DNA of 64,000 nucleotides, taken from positions 259,005 through 323,004 of the forward strand of contig CAJJBE010000005.1 in NCBI GenBank assembly GCA_905182335.1, written 5' to 3'. Shown here one piece after another: positions 7,959 through 15,745 of this stretch. Positions within the stretch are counted from its first letter, which is position 1. Every line of letters starts with the position of its first letter. The DNA comes from Flavobacteriales bacterium UBA4466. Its GTDB lineage: Bacteria > Bacteroidota > Bacteroidia > Flavobacteriales_D > Crocinitomicaceae. The translations under genes and the position numbers were made by a program. The notes under the pieces were generated by a model. It saw only the letters and a list, made by a program, of their open reading frames with translations. It did no database searches and was not told the origin of the DNA.

Positions 7959-8933
7959 ATGAAAAGAACATTACTTGTATTAAGTACAATTCTGAGTTCA
8001 ATGACATTCGCCCAACTAATCGATTGTAATGAGCTCTTTATTTCTGAATATGCAGAAGGCTGGAGCAACAATAAAGCGTTAGAAATTTATAATCCAACAA
8101 GCACATCAATTGACTTGAGTCAATATATGGTGATTAGATATTCTAATGGTGCAACTACTGCAACAGCTGCTAATGCAGTACAGTTGACTGGTTTATTAGC
8201 TGCTCATGATGTTCATGTAGCTGTATTAGAACAATTAGATCCAAATGGAATAGACCAAGATACTCCGATTTGGGATTCTTTACAGGTAAGGGCTGATGCT
8301 TTTTATTGTCCTGATTATTATACTTCAAATGCATTTTACTTTAATGGAAATGATGCTGTTGTATTAGCGAAGGGAACAACTTCAAATATTACTGGAGCAA
8401 CCTTAATTGATGTGTTTGGGAAGATAGGAGAAGATCCAGAAATTCCTGGTTTTGGTGGATGGACATCAGAATTCCCATACATAGGCTCAGGTCTTGTAGT
8501 AACTGAAGATCATTCAATGATTCGAAAAGCATATATAGTAAAAGGAGAAACAAATCCAACAATTTCTTATTTTGATCCATTAGCAGAGTACGATTCAATA
8601 CCCCCTGTTATTGATATTGGTGGGCAATTATATGGTAATTGGGCTTCTCTAGGTTCACATGATTGCGATTGTAATCCACTATCAGTAGAAGAGGCTTCTA
8701 AATCTTCAGTTTCTATTTTTCCTAACCCATCAAACGGTGAGTTTTATATAAATGGTGCTTCAGATTATGCAACGATATTAGTTGTAAATTCATTAGGACA
8801 AAAAATTGAGTCTATCACAAACAATTCAAGTGCTTTAGTTTCTTTTGATTTAAAAGAAACTAGAGGCGTATTTTTTGTAAAACTTACAGGAAATGAAGGT
8901 AATAGCATTATTAAACGTGTAATCATTAAATAA
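7959..8933 (+). CDS. Lamin-tail-domain (LTD) secreted protein with T9SS type A sorting domain
   Basis: An extracellular or surface protein of 324 aa. A signal peptide (MKRTLLVLSTILSSMTFAQ) precedes an LTD-like domain (about 20-225) recognisable from LFISEYAEGWSNNKALEIYN, the usual LTD opening with the conserved ISEY and ALEIYN blocks. The last 75 residues form a T9SS type A sorting domain (IFPNPSNGEFYING to IIKRVIIK). LTD domains often accompany secreted bacterial nucleases and phosphatases, which fits the genes downstream. No catalytic domain is visible, so it may be an adhesive or accessory factor. It is the first gene of a same-strand run ending at 15671. Confidence 0.85.
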   Translation: MKRTLLVLSTILSSMTFAQLIDCNELFISEYAEGWSNNKALEIYNPTSTSIDLSQYMVIRYSNGATTATAANAVQLTGLLAAHDVHVAVLEQLDPNGIDQDTPIWDSLQVRADAFYCPDYYTSNAFYFNGNDAVVLAKGTTSNITGATLIDVFGKIGEDPEIPGFGGWTSEFPYIGSGLVVTEDHSMIRKAYIVKGETNPTISYFDPLAEYDSIPPVIDIGGQLYGNWASLGSHDCDCNPLSVEEASKSSVSIFPNPSNGEFYINGASDYATILVVNSLGQKIESITNNSSALVSFDLKETRGVFFVKLTGNEGNSIIKRVIIK

Positions 8934-8972
8934 TTTAGATTCTTTTTTCTAAAAGAAGTTGAGTTTTTTCGT

Positions 8973-11732
8973 ATGAGACTAATTTTATGTACTCTAATTT
9001 TAATGACTTCATGGAATGCTATGAGTCAAACTGCAACTGTAACGGGTACAGTAATTGATAATGGTGCTAAGCAACCCGTTGTTGGTGCTAAAATCATCTT
9101 TTCTGATAAGCATAAAGCATATTCAGATTATGATGGTAACTATAGTATTAATGCTGTTCCTTTTGGATTATATAATGTTGTAATTACAATGTTATCTTTT
9201 GATACCCTTAGAGTAAACGTAGTTATAGATAGTGAAAACTTTGACATGTCTATTATATTAGGTGGGAGTCAGGAAATTGAAGAGGTAAATGTTATTGGAA
9301 ATTTAGCGCAGGACAGAAAAACCCCTGTTGCAGTTTCTACCATCGGTACTCGGGAAATTAATGAAGAGTTAGGATCTCAAGACTTACCAATGATTTTAAA
9401 TTCTAAGCCTGGTGTTCATGCGACACAACAAGGTGGTGGAGATGGAGATGCACGAATTACTATTCGTGGTTTTGATCAGCGTAATGTAGGTGTAATGATT
9501 GATGGGGTTCCTGTTAATGATATGGAAAATGGTGCTGTATATTGGTCTAATTGGTTTGGTTTAGACGCAATAACACAACAGATACAGGTACAAAGAGGCC
9601 TTGGTGCAACTAAGTTAGCTATGCCTTCTGTTGGAGGTACGATGAATATTCTTACTCAAAATACGGGGGGTAAGCGAGAGGTTAAAGTGAGACAAGAATA
9701 TGGTTCAGGAAATTTTCTTAGAACATCCTTGTCTTATAAGTCAGGAACACTTAAGAATGGTTGGGGGGTTTTATTTTCAGGTTCATACAAGCAAGGGAAT
9801 GGATGGGTAGATGGATTAAATACACAAGGTGCATTCTATTATTTAAAGATTCAAAAGAAAATTAAGAGCCATGTTATTTCTTTAAGTGGGTTTGGCGCAC
9901 CTCAACAACATGGGCAAAGGTCTTATAATCAACGAATAGAATATTGGGATTCGTCATATGCTTCAAAATTAGGGGTAACTAATTTTGATACTACAAATGT
10001 AAACAATGGCCCAAGGTATAATCAACACTGGGGCTATTATACTGATAGTACAAATGGTAATCAATCATTACTTAATGAGCGCCGAAATTACTACCACAAG
10101 CCACAAGTTACATTAAAAGATTTTTGGATTATCAATGATAACCTATCATGGTCTAATATGGCTTATGTTTCAATTGGTCGTGGCGGAGGGCAGCGTTATT
10201 TTGGATCTTCTTCAACAATTATTCGTGATGAGAACAACCAAATTGCTTGGAATGAAATTGAATATAATAATCAATGGCAAACTTTTTTTGGAACAACAAC
10301 TTCAACTGCAGAAAGTAAATACGATGATAATTTATTAAAATCTTCTCAAATTTTATCTGCTTCTGTCAATAATCATATGTGGATTGGAGCTTTGTCTCAA
10401 TTTGATTATAAAATAGATGAAAAATGGAATATTGCTGGAGGTCTAGATTATCGCTATTATAAGGGGACACATTATACTGAGATTAAAAACTTATTAGGGG
10501 GAGATTATTTTATTAATTCTGCAGATCAAAATGCAATAGAAATTAAAAAAGTAGTTGGGGATAAAATTGCTAATCAACCTTATCAAAATGATCGTGCTGG
10601 TTTTGTTCAATGGATTGGAGCTTTTGGTCAGGCCGAATATTCTTTCGGAAGATGGACAGCTTTTTTTAATCTTTCCGGTGTTTCTAATGGCTATAAAGGT
10701 GAAGATTATTTTAGAAAGAAAACAATGCAAGTTGGTGACTCTATTATTGAGATTGGAACCCACATCTTAAGCCAAGATGGTAGATTAAACTATGTTTCAG
10801 ACACAGTGACCTTGGGTGGTGTGAATTATACAGCATCTTCAGATGGCCTAGAAACTTCAAGTACCGATTGGAAATGCTTATTTGGGGGGACAATTAAAGC
10901 AGGTGCTAACTTTAATTTTACTGAACGGTCTAACATTTTTATGAACTTAGGATACCTAAGTAGAACTCCACAGTATAGCAATGTGGTTGACAATAATACA
11001 AACGAATTCTTTGAAGAGATTTTAAATGAAAATATATATGCTTTTGAACTTGGCTATGGTTTCAGAAGTAAAAGAGTCAGTGTAAATGTAAATGGGTATT
11101 ATACACATTGGCAAAACAAACCCTTTCCATATGGAGTCAGTATACCTGACCCTCAAGATCCTACGGAGTTCATAAGAGCGAATGTAAATGGTATGGATGC
11201 ACTTCATTTGGGAACTGAAATTGATGCCTCCTTTAGATTAAATAAAAAATGGACTATTGAAGGGATGGCTAGCTACGGAGATTGGACTTGGCGGTCTTCA
11301 GAGATAGTTGATGTATTAGGTACTGAATTTGAATTTGATGCAAAAGGTGTTCATGTTGGCGACGCTGCCCAATCAACTTACGCAGCAAGTTTAAGATATG
11401 CTTTTATTAAAAATGGATACTTTAAAATTAAATATACTTATTTCGATAGATATTTCAGTGACTTTGATCCTTTTAGCTTAACAGGCGCCAATGGGGGAAC
11501 AGAATCATGGGAAATCCCTTCCTACGGATTAATGAGTATTCATGCCGGCTATCGTTTTAGATTTGAAAAAAGCAGTTTAAATTTAAGAGCGAACGTCTTT
11601 AATGCATTAAATACATTATACATTTCTGATGCTAGAACAAACCAATTTGGATCAGATTTTAGTGCAAATTCAGCAGGAGTATTCGTTGGTCAAGGTTTAC
11701 GTTTTAATATTTCACTAGGGTTTCAATTTTAA
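8973..11732 (+). CDS. TonB-dependent receptor with carboxypeptidase-like regulatory domain
   Basis: An outer-membrane active-transport receptor of 919 aa. The order is signal peptide (to about 18), a CarboxypepD-reg-like beta-sandwich (ATVTGTVIDNGAKQPVVGAK, about 20-95), a plug domain with TRGFDQRN-type and MIDGVPVNDMENG motifs (about 110-230) and a long 22-strand barrel ending in the aromatic FNISLGFQF. No SusD partner follows. Its position between two T9SS proteins, 40 bp after the LTD gene and about 50 bp before a secreted nuclease, suggests import of a product of nucleic-acid degradation; that substrate is inference only. Confidence 0.92.
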   Translation: MRLILCTLILMTSWNAMSQTATVTGTVIDNGAKQPVVGAKIIFSDKHKAYSDYDGNYSINAVPFGLYNVVITMLSFDTLRVNVVIDSENFDMSIILGGSQEIEEVNVIGNLAQDRKTPVAVSTIGTREINEELGSQDLPMILNSKPGVHATQQGGGDGDARITIRGFDQRNVGVMIDGVPVNDMENGAVYWSNWFGLDAITQQIQVQRGLGATKLAMPSVGGTMNILTQNTGGKREVKVRQEYGSGNFLRTSLSYKSGTLKNGWGVLFSGSYKQGNGWVDGLNTQGAFYYLKIQKKIKSHVISLSGFGAPQQHGQRSYNQRIEYWDSSYASKLGVTNFDTTNVNNGPRYNQHWGYYTDSTNGNQSLLNERRNYYHKPQVTLKDFWIINDNLSWSNMAYVSIGRGGGQRYFGSSSTIIRDENNQIAWNEIEYNNQWQTFFGTTTSTAESKYDDNLLKSSQILSASVNNHMWIGALSQFDYKIDEKWNIAGGLDYRYYKGTHYTEIKNLLGGDYFINSADQNAIEIKKVVGDKIANQPYQNDRAGFVQWIGAFGQAEYSFGRWTAFFNLSGVSNGYKGEDYFRKKTMQVGDSIIEIGTHILSQDGRLNYVSDTVTLGGVNYTASSDGLETSSTDWKCLFGGTIKAGANFNFTERSNIFMNLGYLSRTPQYSNVVDNNTNEFFEEILNENIYAFELGYGFRSKRVSVNVNGYYTHWQNKPFPYGVSIPDPQDPTEFIRANVNGMDALHLGTEIDASFRLNKKWTIEGMASYGDWTWRSSEIVDVLGTEFEFDAKGVHVGDAAQSTYAASLRYAFIKNGYFKIKYTYFDRYFSDFDPFSLTGANGGTESWEIPSYGLMSIHAGYRFRFEKSSLNLRANVFNALNTLYISDARTNQFGSDFSANSAGVFVGQGLRFNISLGFQF

Positions 11733-11785
11733 TAATTAATTACTTTGGCTAACTTGCTTTAAAGGTTAAATAAAAAACAAACAAA

Positions 11786-14059
11786 ATGAAAAAAGTAATA
11801 TTAATATTCTCTGCAATAACGTTGTCTTTATTGACCTCAGCCCAAACAGATATCGCAAATGCTCGTACTTTTGGAGCCGGTCAAACAGTAACAGTAACAG
11901 GTGTTACAACTAACGGGTCTGAATTAGGGAGTATCCGTTATATACAAGATGCAACTGCTGGTATTGCTGGTTATGGAGGGCCAATTACAGGAGCCAATAG
12001 ATATGACTCTATAACGGTTACAGGTCCATTAATTGAGTTTTCTGGATTATTAGAGATATCTATAGTGACAAGTATGACAAATCATGGTCCTGCAGTTATT
12101 CAACCAATACCATTACAAATTCCTTTTTCGTCAGCAAACGAAGATATGGAGTCCCAATTAGTTGAATTCCAAAATGTGACATTTGTTAATCCAACAACTT
12201 TTGCTTCGGTAAATAGTACAGTTGAGGTCACAGATGGGGTCACAAACTTTGATGTTAGAATCAATGGCTCAACAAATATTGCTGGAACAGCAATGCCTAC
12301 AGGACCTATTACTATAACCGGCTTAGTTGGTCAATTTAACGCTAATTATCAAATCGTCCCTAGAGATTTAAATGACATAATTCCTTACGTAGCTCCCGCA
12401 TTTGAAATTAATATTTTAGTTGAAGGCACTACTATTTTAACAAACGGAAATTACTTTGTGGGAAATTCATCAGCCGTTAATCTAACAATTCAAAATCTTG
12501 GTTCGACAGATTTGAATATTTTAGGATATACAATGACTGGAGTGGATGCTACTGATTTCACATCTACGATTTCTTCAGGAACTATTGCTGGTTCTTCAGA
12601 TCAAGCATATACAATTAATTATACTCCTTCTGGAAATGGTTCGCACTTTGCAACAATTGAAATAGGATCTAATGATACGGATGAAGATCCCTATATAATT
12701 AATTTAGAGGGTGTGGGTACTGATAATTTGGCAACTGAACCGACAATAAATCCTTCAGGGTTAACATTTCCTTTATTAGAGGCTTATACATTAGGCGGGC
12801 AATATACTGCTGGAGTAGGTGCTTCAAAATATCTCGTTCTTTGGAAAAATGGCTCTGCTATTACAACTGCTCCATCGGATGGATTTTCATATATGAGAGG
12901 AGATGTTATTGGTGATTCGAAAGTTGCTTACGTTGGAGCTGGAACTTCTTTTACTCCAAGAGGAATTATCGCAAATCAAGATTACTACTTTTCAGTTTAT
13001 GCATTTAATGGTGCGGGTGGGTTTGAAAATTATTTAACAGCTTCTCCGGCTACTGGAAATACAACATCTTTAGGTGAGGATATCGGTTCTTATTATAGTG
13101 GAATTTCAATAGCATCACCAACCTTAGTTTCTGACTTGAATGCATTGATTAACCCACATACAATGATAACATACTTCATTTATAAGCAAACAATGATGAG
13201 TGAATTTGAGATCAAAGATACGGTAGGCGGTCAGTCTTACGTTACTTGTGCTTTGTCTGGAGAAAGAATGATTTTTGATGACCCGTTTGACTGGGCAGCA
13301 AATGGTTATAGCAGGGAGCATACATTTGCACATTCTTGGATGACATCATGGCCGGCGAATAATCCAGAACAACCAGAGTATAATGATCAACACAATTTAT
13401 ATCCTGCTAATCTAGCTCAAGCGAATACACCTCGAAGTAACCTTCCTCTAGGTGATATTGATGGAAATATTATTTTCACATACTTAGGAGGAAGTGTTGG
13501 ATTTATGGGGTCTCAAATGGTTTACGAGCCAAGAGATATTCATAAAGGAAACGCAGCACGTTCAATTATGTACATGGCTATTGCATATGGATTCAATTTA
13601 AATGGCGATTTAAATTCTGATAAACAAGAGCAAACGATTTTAAAAGATTGGCATTTCAATGACTTACCGGATAATTATGAAATCGCTCGTCATGAGTATA
13701 TTAATGATCTACAAGGCAATCGTAATCCATTCATTGATTCCGTGGATTATGCATGTTTCATTGATTTTGATGATAATTCATTTGTAGTGAATGGATGTCA
13801 ACTTTCAATTGAAGAGCAAGTTGAAAACAACTTGGTTATTTTTCCTGTTCCTTCAAATGATAAAGTGTTTGTTCAGGTGAATGATACTGAAATTACAGCG
13901 TATACCGTAGTTGATGCTCAAGGTAGACAAGTACTTTCAGTTTCTGGAATCAATGCTCCGTTAGTTGAGCTGAGTGCCTCTAGCTTAGGTATAGGAACAT
14001 ACTTAATTACTGTAACTACTCCATATGGAAGTACACAGCGTAAATTGATTATTCAGTAA
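11786..14059 (+). CDS. Secreted endonuclease I (EndA/NucM family) with T9SS type A sorting domain
   Basis: Predicted extracellular DNase/RNase of 757 aa. A signal peptide is followed by an OB-fold-like region (about 20-200), a choice-of-anchor-D/Hydin-type beta-sandwich (about 205-315), a fibronectin-like segment, and an endonuclease I domain (about 430-660). The nuclease signature is clear: REHTFAHSWM near residue 511 supplies the catalytic His of the beta-beta-metal fold, and DQHNLYPANLAQAN carries the metal-site Asn and neighbours. The last 75 residues are a T9SS type A signal (IFPVPSNDKVFVQ to RKLIIQ). Its stop overlaps the next start (TAATG), so it is probably co-translated with the 5'-nucleotidase genes. 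Confidence 0.88.
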   Translation: MKKVILIFSAITLSLLTSAQTDIANARTFGAGQTVTVTGVTTNGSELGSIRYIQDATAGIAGYGGPITGANRYDSITVTGPLIEFSGLLEISIVTSMTNHGPAVIQPIPLQIPFSSANEDMESQLVEFQNVTFVNPTTFASVNSTVEVTDGVTNFDVRINGSTNIAGTAMPTGPITITGLVGQFNANYQIVPRDLNDIIPYVAPAFEINILVEGTTILTNGNYFVGNSSAVNLTIQNLGSTDLNILGYTMTGVDATDFTSTISSGTIAGSSDQAYTINYTPSGNGSHFATIEIGSNDTDEDPYIINLEGVGTDNLATEPTINPSGLTFPLLEAYTLGGQYTAGVGASKYLVLWKNGSAITTAPSDGFSYMRGDVIGDSKVAYVGAGTSFTPRGIIANQDYYFSVYAFNGAGGFENYLTASPATGNTTSLGEDIGSYYSGISIASPTLVSDLNALINPHTMITYFIYKQTMMSEFEIKDTVGGQSYVTCALSGERMIFDDPFDWAANGYSREHTFAHSWMTSWPANNPEQPEYNDQHNLYPANLAQANTPRSNLPLGDIDGNIIFTYLGGSVGFMGSQMVYEPRDIHKGNAARSIMYMAIAYGFNLNGDLNSDKQEQTILKDWHFNDLPDNYEIARHEYINDLQGNRNPFIDSVDYACFIDFDDNSFVVNGCQLSIEEQVENNLVIFPVPSNDKVFVQVNDTEITAYTVVDAQGRQVLSVSGINAPLVELSASSLGIGTYLITVTTPYGSTQRKLIIQ

Positions 14060-14766
14060 TGCTTATGCATAGAACAGTTTTAATCATTGGAGCAGGCCTA
14101 ACAGCCTGCTCTTCTGTTAATATACTTTCAGTAAAATCAGAGTCTATTTCGGTAACTGATGAATTTCAAAAAGTCAGTGTAGTAGACTCTATTGTTTACC
14201 CATATAGAATTGCCCTTGAAGAAGAAATGTTCGAAGTGATTGCGACGACTGAGAACAATTTTACAAAATCGAGACCGAATGGTTCATTAAACAATTGGGC
14301 TGCGGATGCAATTTTAAATTCTGTAGATAAAACCACATTTGGTTTAACGCCATACTTTTGTCTACTCAATCTTGGTGGATTGAGAAGTCCATTAAATAAA
14401 GGGAATATAGTTCTTGGGGATGTTTATAAGTTGATGCCATTTGACAACGAAATTGTTGTTGTGGAATTACCGTTTTCATCGTTAGATAAAATTGCTCAAT
14501 ATTTAACCTCAAGTGGAGGTGAGCCAATCTCAAATGCCGTATTAGATTTAAATCATATTGATTTAAAAAGAGCAGTAGATGATTATAGTTCGTTTTATGT
14601 GGTTACCTCAGACTACCTTATGAATGGAGGTGATAATATGGGTTTCTTTCAAGAGAATGTAGGTGTTATCTACACCAATATTTTAATGCGCGATGCAATG
14701 ATTTCGGAAGCGAAAAAGCAAGGAGTACTCGTTTTTAATAACGAAAAACGAATTATTTTAGAGTAA
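14059..14766 (+). CDS. 5'-nucleotidase C-terminal domain lipoprotein
   Basis: A 235-aa protein equal to the substrate-binding half of UshA-type 5'-nucleotidases. The N-terminus has a short hydrophobic segment and a lipobox-like GLTAC, so it is likely a lipoprotein. The C-terminal-domain signatures are NGSLNNWAADAI, LLNLGGLRSPLNKG (the Asn and Arg that contact the base and sugar in UshA) and GDVYKLMPFDNE. It has no metallophosphatase half of its own; that is encoded by the next gene. Both junctions overlap (14059 with the nuclease stop, 14766 with the next ATG), suggesting coupled translation and a two-chain enzyme. Pairing is inferred from context. Confidence 0.85.
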   Translation: MLMHRTVLIIGAGLTACSSVNILSVKSESISVTDEFQKVSVVDSIVYPYRIALEEEMFEVIATTENNFTKSRPNGSLNNWAADAILNSVDKTTFGLTPYFCLLNLGGLRSPLNKGNIVLGDVYKLMPFDNEIVVVELPFSSLDKIAQYLTSSGGEPISNAVLDLNHIDLKRAVDDYSSFYVVTSDYLMNGGDNMGFFQENVGVIYTNILMRDAMISEAKKQGVLVFNNEKRIILE

Positions 14767-15671
14767 TGAAAAGAATAGATTTCATACGCAATTCTGTTTT
14801 AATTTCTAGTGGGGTACTAGTTGCTCCAAGTTTGATTGCTCAAGGAGAAAGAGTGAACCTTAAGAATCGATTAACCATTCTGCATACAAATGATACGCAC
14901 TCTAACATAGATCCTTTTCCGGAAAATCATCACAAGTATCCAGGTAAAGGTGGTGTTGCACGTCGATATGAGTTAATACAGCAGGTTAGGGCAGAAGAAG
15001 AAAATGTTTTATTACTAGATGCAGGAGATATTTTTCAAGGCACACCTTACTTCAATAAATATGGAGGTATTCTTGAGATGAAGTTGATGACTGCATTAGG
15101 TTATGATGCTGCAACGATGGGTAATCATGATTTCGATGGTGGAATGGAGGGGTTCGTAAAAGCACGAATGTCAGCTGACTTCCCCTTTTTATGCTCAAAC
15201 TATGAGTTTAAACACACACCGATAGACGGGTATACAGGGGATTACACAATCATCAAAAAAGGAAATATTAAAGTTGGTGTTTTTGGTGTTGGCATAGAAT
15301 TAAAAGGATTAGTACCTGACAATAAGTTTGGGGAATCTGTTTATTTAGACCCTATCGAGATTGCAAATGATAAAGCACTAGAATTAAGAAATCAAGGGTG
15401 TGATTTAGTGATTTGTTTGTCTCACTTAGGATATGAATATCATAAAGACAAGGTTTCAGATCGCATCTTAGCAAGAAAAACAAAGAATATTCATCTAATC
15501 ATAGGTGGACATACGCATACATTTCTTGATAAGCCAACTGAAGAGAAAAATTTGGACGACCAAACGGTTCTGATTAACCAGGTTGGTTGGGCAGGAATTA
15601 ATGTAGGTCGTGTTGATTTTAATTTTGAAAAAAACGTATTTGTAAAAAATGATGTTTTGATTGTAGAGTAG
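14766..15671 (+). CDS. 5'-nucleotidase N-terminal metallophosphatase chain
   Basis: A 301-aa exported calcineurin-like phosphoesterase equal to the catalytic half of UshA. All dimetal motifs are present: LHTNDTHSN (DxH), LDAGDIFQGTPYF (GDxxQG), MGNHDFDGG (GNHD) and GGHTHTFLDKP (GHxH). The N-terminus MKRIDFIRNSVLISSG resembles a Tat signal but has KR instead of RR, so the export route is unclear. Together with the preceding lipoprotein it would hydrolyse 5'-nucleotides to nucleosides and phosphate. It ends the operon, followed by a terminator at 15697-15730. Confidence 0.9.
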   Translation: MKRIDFIRNSVLISSGVLVAPSLIAQGERVNLKNRLTILHTNDTHSNIDPFPENHHKYPGKGGVARRYELIQQVRAEEENVLLLDAGDIFQGTPYFNKYGGILEMKLMTALGYDAATMGNHDFDGGMEGFVKARMSADFPFLCSNYEFKHTPIDGYTGDYTIIKKGNIKVGVFGVGIELKGLVPDNKFGESVYLDPIEIANDKALELRNQGCDLVICLSHLGYEYHKDKVSDRILARKTKNIHLIIGGHTHTFLDKPTEEKNLDDQTVLINQVGWAGINVGRVDFNFEKNVFVKNDVLIVE

Positions 15672-15696: not shown

Positions 15697-15730
15697 AAAC
15701 GTCGACTATTTCTAGCCGACGTTTCTTTTT
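15697..15730. terminator. Bidirectional intrinsic terminator between the nucleotidase operon and lpdA
   Basis: AAACGTCG pairs with CGACGTTT, with an inner CTA/TAG extension around a TTTC loop. T-rich tracts flank the stem on both sides, so it can stop both converging transcripts. Confidence 0.75.
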
Positions 15731-15745
15731 TAGTATGGTATATTA

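Follow-up and report, generated by a model that had tools for sequence, protein, structure and literature searches.

Closest described systems

Bacteroidota have been named as likely DNA degraders (PMC8289736; papers are cited by PMC number, each for the part of its text that was available). We analyzed a five-gene locus at positions 7959-15671 of a 64,000-nucleotide stretch of DNA, referred to here as the window (contig CAJJBE010000005.1, positions 259,005 to 323,004), from Flavobacteriales bacterium UBA4466, a member of the Crocinitomicaceae. The locus joins an LTD protein, a TonB-dependent receptor, a secreted nuclease, and a two-piece 5'-nucleotidase. We consider it probable that the locus obtains phosphate and nucleosides from nucleic acids and that the receptor performs the import step.

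The nearest described arrangement is a gene pair of Riemerella anatipestifer, in which an outer-membrane receptor with a CarboxypepD_reg domain (RA0C_RS04915, resembling TonB-dependent transporters, TBDTs) precedes a DUF5689 surface protein (RA0C_RS04920). Markerless deletion of either gene abolishes transformation, which gives the DNA cargo genetic backing, and in most Flavobacteriaceae the two genes lie side by side (PMC8459023). Mutants in tonB are less transformable, one tonB effect being ascribed to iron (PMC8383284). In the window locus, too, the gene that follows the TBDT encodes a DUF5689 protein. It differs from Riemerella-type pairs in receptor clade, in having a nuclease domain (none was found in the 10 scanned Flavobacteriaceae DUF5689 partners, as classed in this comparison), and in the nucleotidase pair, which was not seen alongside them; the window genome also has no detectable ComEC and DprA. 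One 1367-aa Flavobacteriaceae protein (L195:4314-8417, - strand) is itself ExeM-like, with LTD, DUF5689, Exo_endo_phos, an SprB repeat, and a tail for the type IX secretion system (T9SS).

The LTD of the Shewanella nuclease ExeM is important for activity, as are two OB-like regions, and ExeM and its relatives, which act on extracellular DNA, resemble the locus in combining LTD, OB-like regions, and a nuclease domain (PMC6085458). Unlike in ExeM, the parts are split over two T9SS-exported proteins, Endonuclease I or PLD replaces EEP, and a TonB receptor is attached. No EEP domain was found in the locus proteins with Pfam, and LTD and DUF5689 lie on different proteins. YhcR of Bacillus subtilis joins OB, nuclease, and 5'-nucleotidase domains, and the nuclease domain of YhcR and YfkN differs from that of the window locus. 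Both offer a parallel as extracellular nucleases for reclaiming phosphate from extracellular DNA (eDNA), as nucleases do in Bacillus biofilms (PMC11458576); their host, however, is single-membraned, without an outer-membrane import step.

Two further systems come from phosphate (Pi) and DNA metabolism. Flavobacterium johnsoniae has LTD plus Endonuclease I nucleases listed as responsive to Pi depletion (Fjoh_4721/4723), and Flavobacterium PusCD and EndA1/EndA2 resemble the locus in a TBDT by phosphodiesterases and in Pi-depletion-responsive LTD plus Endonuclease I nucleases, respectively; unlike the locus, PusCD has a SusD-like lipoprotein, and EndA1/2 are listed as orphan genes away from any TBDT (PMC8115612). 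The DNA-degradation loci of Candidatus Izemoplasmatales likewise group transporters and related enzymes with secreted nucleases, one of which has a lamin tail domain, although the transporters differ and the available text mentions no TonB receptor (PMC8289736). By feature tests, the locus is not a SusCD system or a member of the Riemerella pair, and it is probably not a PusCD system either, though it would be nutrient-utilization-like. We found no description of the LTD-receptor-nuclease-nucleotidase gene order in the open-licence PMC literature, which covers few subscription papers.

Organization of the locus

Five open reading frames (ORFs), all on the + strand, were confirmed within 7959-15671. 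Their order is LTD-T9SS protein, SusD-less TonB receptor, DUF5689-Endonuclease I-T9SS protein, 5_nucleotid_C lipoprotein, and metallophosphatase. Domain calls are Pfam matches above curated cut-offs.

7959..8933, + strand: LTD protein, 324 aa, with signal peptide, LTD (24-140), and T9SS type A sorting tail (253-323) (Pfam)
8973..11732, + strand: TonB-dependent receptor, 919 aa, with CarboxypepD_reg (CarbopepD_reg_2), Plug, and beta barrel (Pfam)
11786..14059, + strand: secreted nuclease, 757 aa, with DUF5689, Ig-like (HYDIN / choice-of-anchor D), Endonuclease I, and T9SS tail (Pfam, NCBIfam)
11846..12409, + strand: DUF5689 region, predicted tandem OB fold (model pLDDT 91.2, Foldseek)
13301..13741, + strand: Endonuclease I catalytic domain, residues 506-652 (Pfam 1.2e-21; PDB 1oup 1.3e-9)
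14059..14766, + strand: 5'-nucleotidase C-terminal (substrate-binding) half, lipoprotein, 235 aa, lipobox LTAC (Pfam 5_nucleotid_C; TAATG at start)
14766..15671, + strand: UshA/CD73-type metallophosphatase half, 301 aa, of a family with Tat-like signals (Pfam Metallophos)
15697..15731, usable on both strands: terminator hairpin (15697-15724) and T run (fold-energy test)

Gaps of 39 and 53 bases separate genes 1-2 and 2-3, and genes 3-4 and 4-5 each meet in a 1-base stop/start overlap, TAATG at both. ORF coordinates, junctions, and hairpin all bear out the original prediction of five same-strand genes with small gaps, two stop/start overlaps, and a closing terminator. The predicted lack of SusD also held, with no SusD family match in the five locus proteins or the three flanking proteins scanned; a SusCD polysaccharide-utilization-type system was ruled out on this ground. 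The T9SS sorting domain TIGR04183 scored above cut-off in genes 1 and 3, and the T9SS component SprA_N is present in the window genome. Residues 20-157 of the LTD protein match the LTD end of the NCBIfam ExeM model at 64.9 bits, far under its 1300-bit cut-off.

Conservation within Crocinitomicaceae

We followed gene order in a sample of 120 genomes, 31 of which carry the family label of the window, with neighbors matched by hand. A strong receptor match was present in 25 of these 31 Crocinitomicaceae genomes (the others being G019, G026, G033, G100, G103, and G118), and in 25/25 of the receptor-bearing genomes Endonuclease I and 5_nucleotid_C were no more than a few kilobases from the receptor, on its contig. 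Recurrence of the receptor, nuclease, and nucleotidase order elsewhere, whose absence the original prediction had named as grounds for abandoning it, is therefore common in the family.

A second collection, the named-genome set, comprised the best 80 of 246 relatives; the nearest named relatives of the window genome are mostly labeled Crocinitomicaceae, Fluviicola, or Brumimicrobium, which places the window among them. LTD was directly upstream of the receptor in 72/73 usable loci, the exception being L130, whose broken receptor frame made it count as lacking LTD. Endonuclease I or PLD was found downstream in 59/61 by ORF/HMM, and at the remaining two (L069 and L081) the nuclease was recovered by tblastn. 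Both nucleotidase halves were present in 49/61 loci, the other 12 being mostly distant; L074 has the lipoprotein half and not the metallophosphatase half. All five genes occur in named strains of Brumimicrobium oceani, B. glaciale, B. aurantiacum, and B. mesophilum, and also at L041, L042, and L123, yet the receptors of these three are ∼40% identical to that of the window. A five-gene order recurring in dozens of genomes is not chance.

Loci with an upstream flank shorter than about 1.1-1.2 kb, or a downstream flank shorter than 3 kb (class set, below) or 6.5 kb (others), were dropped before counting. The LTD, Endonuclease I, and PLD profiles were built from set members, so the counts favor the set. 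The two collections overlap (L036/L103 and L039/L075, for example, are the same places), and their counts are not additive. At two loci (L130:2741-5574 and L182:3618-6373) the receptor gene is broken into two ORFs, either through a sequencing error or through decay.

Spread beyond the family

For the wider class we chose 40 loci among the stronger receptor matches, not all of them. LTD was upstream in 37/37 loci with enough flank, and among the 34 with 3 kb downstream, Endonuclease I followed in 28, PLD in three, and neither in three. Of 20 weaker receptor homologues, 16 had neither LTD nor nuclease in the fetched stretch, and two (L177 and L178) had both. A receptor tree (quick method) separated a mostly LTD-linked clade A from clade B and from clade C, the last of these well supported. 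In a phylum sample, 6/118 genomes had a receptor match at E ≤ 1e-100, and the receptor is thus not universal.

The widely conserved unit is LTD-receptor-surface nuclease, to which mainly the Crocinitomicaceae add the nucleotidase pair. The original claim of a five-gene unit accordingly holds in the family and narrows to this three-gene core more widely. Outside the family, in G278 (L239), the nucleotidase pair lies beside LTD in divergent orientation, which links the pair to the locus independently. Clade B receptors of Flavobacteriaceae, which are closer homologues, were tried as orthologues and rejected for having neither LTD nor nuclease nearby. At L160, L161, L162, and L164 the clade B receptors come after a gene of 523-547 aa, which we take, from its start, to resemble glucose-6-phosphate isomerase.

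The surface nuclease

The Endonuclease_1 match of the third gene scored 77.9 bits against a cut-off of 25, and its Arg-Glu-His motif is kept in aligned sequences (R510 in 108/108, E511 in 106/108, and H512 in 108/108). The original prediction of Endonuclease I as the nuclease of the locus is right for most loci; at nine, the third gene instead encodes a PLD protein, with two PLDc domains and two HKD motifs per protein. Six of these were scanned, and DUF5689 was above the Pfam cut-off in 5/6 and a T9SS tail present in 6/6. The nuclease domain is therefore exchangeable at the locus.

DUF5689 was modeled from 12 sequences as a tandem OB fold (best pLDDT 91.2, other four 58-83). Against the PDB (Foldseek), the model gave a best E of 7e-5 and 22 matches at E ≤ 0.001, ten of them titled HIN domains, which bind DNA and were the best matches; further matches are presumably HIN proteins too. 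Matches beyond HIN were YgiW and Teb1, with a TM-score by target of 0.68 for the single OB of YgiW. The DUF5689 search also matched the B. subtilis control genome.

Additional small genes separate receptor and nuclease at L122 (11769-13399), L211, L214, L218, L219, L233, and L237; both small genes of L122 and one of L173 had no match in Pfam. Outside the window, the same genome carries a second, stand-alone Endonuclease I gene (G000:C2:18756-19418; Pfam 129 bits, above the locus copy).

The split 5'-nucleotidase

The nucleotidase domains lie on two overlapping genes, not on one polypeptide as in UshA/CD73. Elsewhere, too, the C-terminal half is commonly encoded by a short open frame of its own, and the split is thus not special. 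Residues of both halves were placed by alignment with solved nucleotidases. The metal residues D43, H45, D88, N120, H121, H220, H249, and H251 of the metallophosphatase half are identical in 65/65 sequences (an alignment that includes L169 and L239, both from outside the five-gene order), and R109, F128, N130, and D192 of the C-terminal half are present in 57/57. Junctions overlap often, in 37/61 cases for nuclease-to-lipoprotein and in 43/66 for lipoprotein-to-phosphatase, which suggests co-translation.

The lipobox cysteine (Cys17) is found in 57/57 aligned lipoprotein halves, and the second arginine of the Tat-like signal in 62/65 metallophosphatases. Because of the lipobox and the Tat-like signal, both halves are probably periplasmic and would act after import. 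The predicted extracellular breakdown would accordingly apply to the T9SS-tailed nuclease and not to the nucleotidase. In the window (14766-14800) the metallophosphatase signal reads MKRIDF, with Ile in place of the second Arg (KRIDF), and Tat export may be weakened or altered.

Boundaries and neighboring genes

The hairpin behind the fifth gene has a folding energy of -11.2 kcal/mol (z -4.5) on the + strand and -19.7 on the - strand, so the convergent gene, which encodes a dihydrolipoamide dehydrogenase-like protein, can use it as well; a simple terminator scanner did not list the hairpin. The other flanking genes in the profile scan encode a DPP IV-like peptidase and citrate synthase. A promoter scan returned 30 sites, fewer than the mean of 37.9 in shuffles, and was not used as evidence.

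Proposed function and alternatives

Nucleic-acid scavenging would proceed in several steps. After T9SS export, the LTD protein and the tandem OB region of DUF5689 would hold extracellular DNA or RNA on the cell surface, where the Endonuclease I domain would cut it. The TonB-dependent receptor would bring oligonucleotides or nucleotides into the periplasm, and there the two pieces of the UshA-type enzyme, the substrate-binding lipoprotein and the metallophosphatase, would come together and strip phosphate. Phosphate and nucleosides may then pass the inner membrane via other transporters. A 5'-nucleotidase would need oligonucleotides to be turned into mononucleotides beforehand, and no exonuclease for this was found in the locus. 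Of the nucleic-acid utilization originally proposed, the conserved order stands, and the import step is a matter of inference; the original prediction did not consider transformation, which we take up below.

Several observations weigh against nucleic-acid scavenging. The nucleotidase pair is absent at L095, L104, and L106, which are family-like loci (∼52% receptor identity), and, with few exceptions, from the locus outside the family. Class loci L208, L221, and L238 lack a downstream nuclease, L173 and L174 have LTD and no nuclease, and L176 falls in clade A with neither. Two further metal ligands of Endonuclease I, which we take to be Glu and Asn, align with Gln545 and Asp559 in the window; both columns are variable, making the predicted activity uncertain. 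Among the five DUF5689 models the strong one stands alone, tandem-OB pair matches have low TM-scores (0.33-0.40), and DUF5689 was at the locus in 7/11 genomes searched. The receptor model (pLDDT 77, pTM 0.75) has a conventional TBDT fold nearest to PqqU/FecA/FhuA and looks like conventional small-cargo TBDTs; matching generic TBDTs, it is uninformative on nucleic acids. The receptor has no positive charge either (-0.98 per 100 aa in the window; clade A mean -0.01, not above clade B), and charge as a sign of polyanion cargo was dropped, having given no signal. Receptor charge and fold lend nothing to a nucleic-acid cargo. Finally, the absence of ComEC and DprA discussed below depends on an assembly that is 91.9% complete.

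Unremarkable charge and a generic fold are also what would be seen if the nuclease served biofilm dispersal or anti-DNA defence and the receptor carried a different cargo (a metal, a vitamin, or some other phosphorylated compound), with common regulation, for example by phosphate limitation, as the sole reason for the genes staying together. Several F. johnsoniae TBDTs are indeed induced by Pi depletion without a nuclease link (PMC8115612). We regard this explanation as unlikely, given that the LTD-receptor-nuclease order is tight across many families even as the nuclease domain is exchanged, and that the 16 related LTD-less receptors also lack a nuclease in the fetched stretch.

Natural transformation, in which the receptor and its DUF5689/LTD partner would, as proposed for Riemerella, bring DNA through the outer membrane to be recombined, draws on the finding that both Riemerella genes are essential (PMC8459023). 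For comparison, Flavobacteriaceae TBDT-DUF5689 pairs stood in for the Riemerella receptor (the published comEC primer had 0 matches in 299 Flavobacteriaceae genomes). A DUF5689 protein followed the TBDT in 10/10 fetched loci (one receptor being split into two ORFs), and 3/10 of the partners also carry LTD. The stand-in receptors, however, form one separate clade with support of 100 in the quick tree, from which the Riemerella receptor itself is absent, and score 45-91 bits to the window receptor. ComEC and DprA were both present in 10/10 other locus-bearing genomes searched, which speaks for transformation, in contrast to 0 matches in the window genome, which may have lost competence. The fusion of a nuclease to the surface protein and the presence of a nucleotidase pair also suit digestion better than transfer of intact DNA. 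The separate receptor clade and the lack of a ComEC or DprA match in the window genome make nutrition a likelier purpose than transformation; by its gene content, and given 91.9% completeness, the window genome is unlikely to be transformable, and as a general account of the locus transformation seems decidedly improbable.

PLDc_2 includes lipases as well as nucleases, and UshA-type enzymes, judging by model names, also hydrolyze UDP-sugars and other phosphates. It is nevertheless very improbable that the PLD forms are phospholipases in a general organic-phosphorus system in which all forms act on a phosphodiester, for instance a lipid headgroup, rather than on nucleic acid, since Endonuclease I is found in most forms and LTD and OB-like domains accompany nucleases (PMC6085458; compare L195, with LTD, DUF5689, and Exo_endo_phos in one protein).

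Under nucleic-acid scavenging, a broader and more tentative proposal can be made, which we put forward as possible and somewhat short of an even chance. Clade A may be a receptor lineage dedicated to importing oligonucleotides for nutrition, in concert with LTD/OB proteins at the surface and with nucleases that can replace one another. It would be kin to the Flavobacteriaceae DNA-uptake pair by architecture and not by receptor descent, with DUF5689 as a HIN-like tandem OB nucleic-acid-binding module common to both.

Implications

Extracellular DNA is a large pool of phosphorus and nitrogen. How its products cross the outer membrane in Bacteroidota is left unexplained in the available text of PMC8289736, and the locus offers a candidate receptor for that step. 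Its carriers include cultured Brumimicrobium strains (L060, L067, L115, and L124). For DUF5689, a family whose function is unknown but which Riemerella needs for transformation, the analysis also suggests a fold and a role. If the proposed function is true, marine and freshwater Bacteroidota would probably have an unusual DNA-feeding route, consisting of cutting at the surface, TonB-powered import, and phosphate removal.

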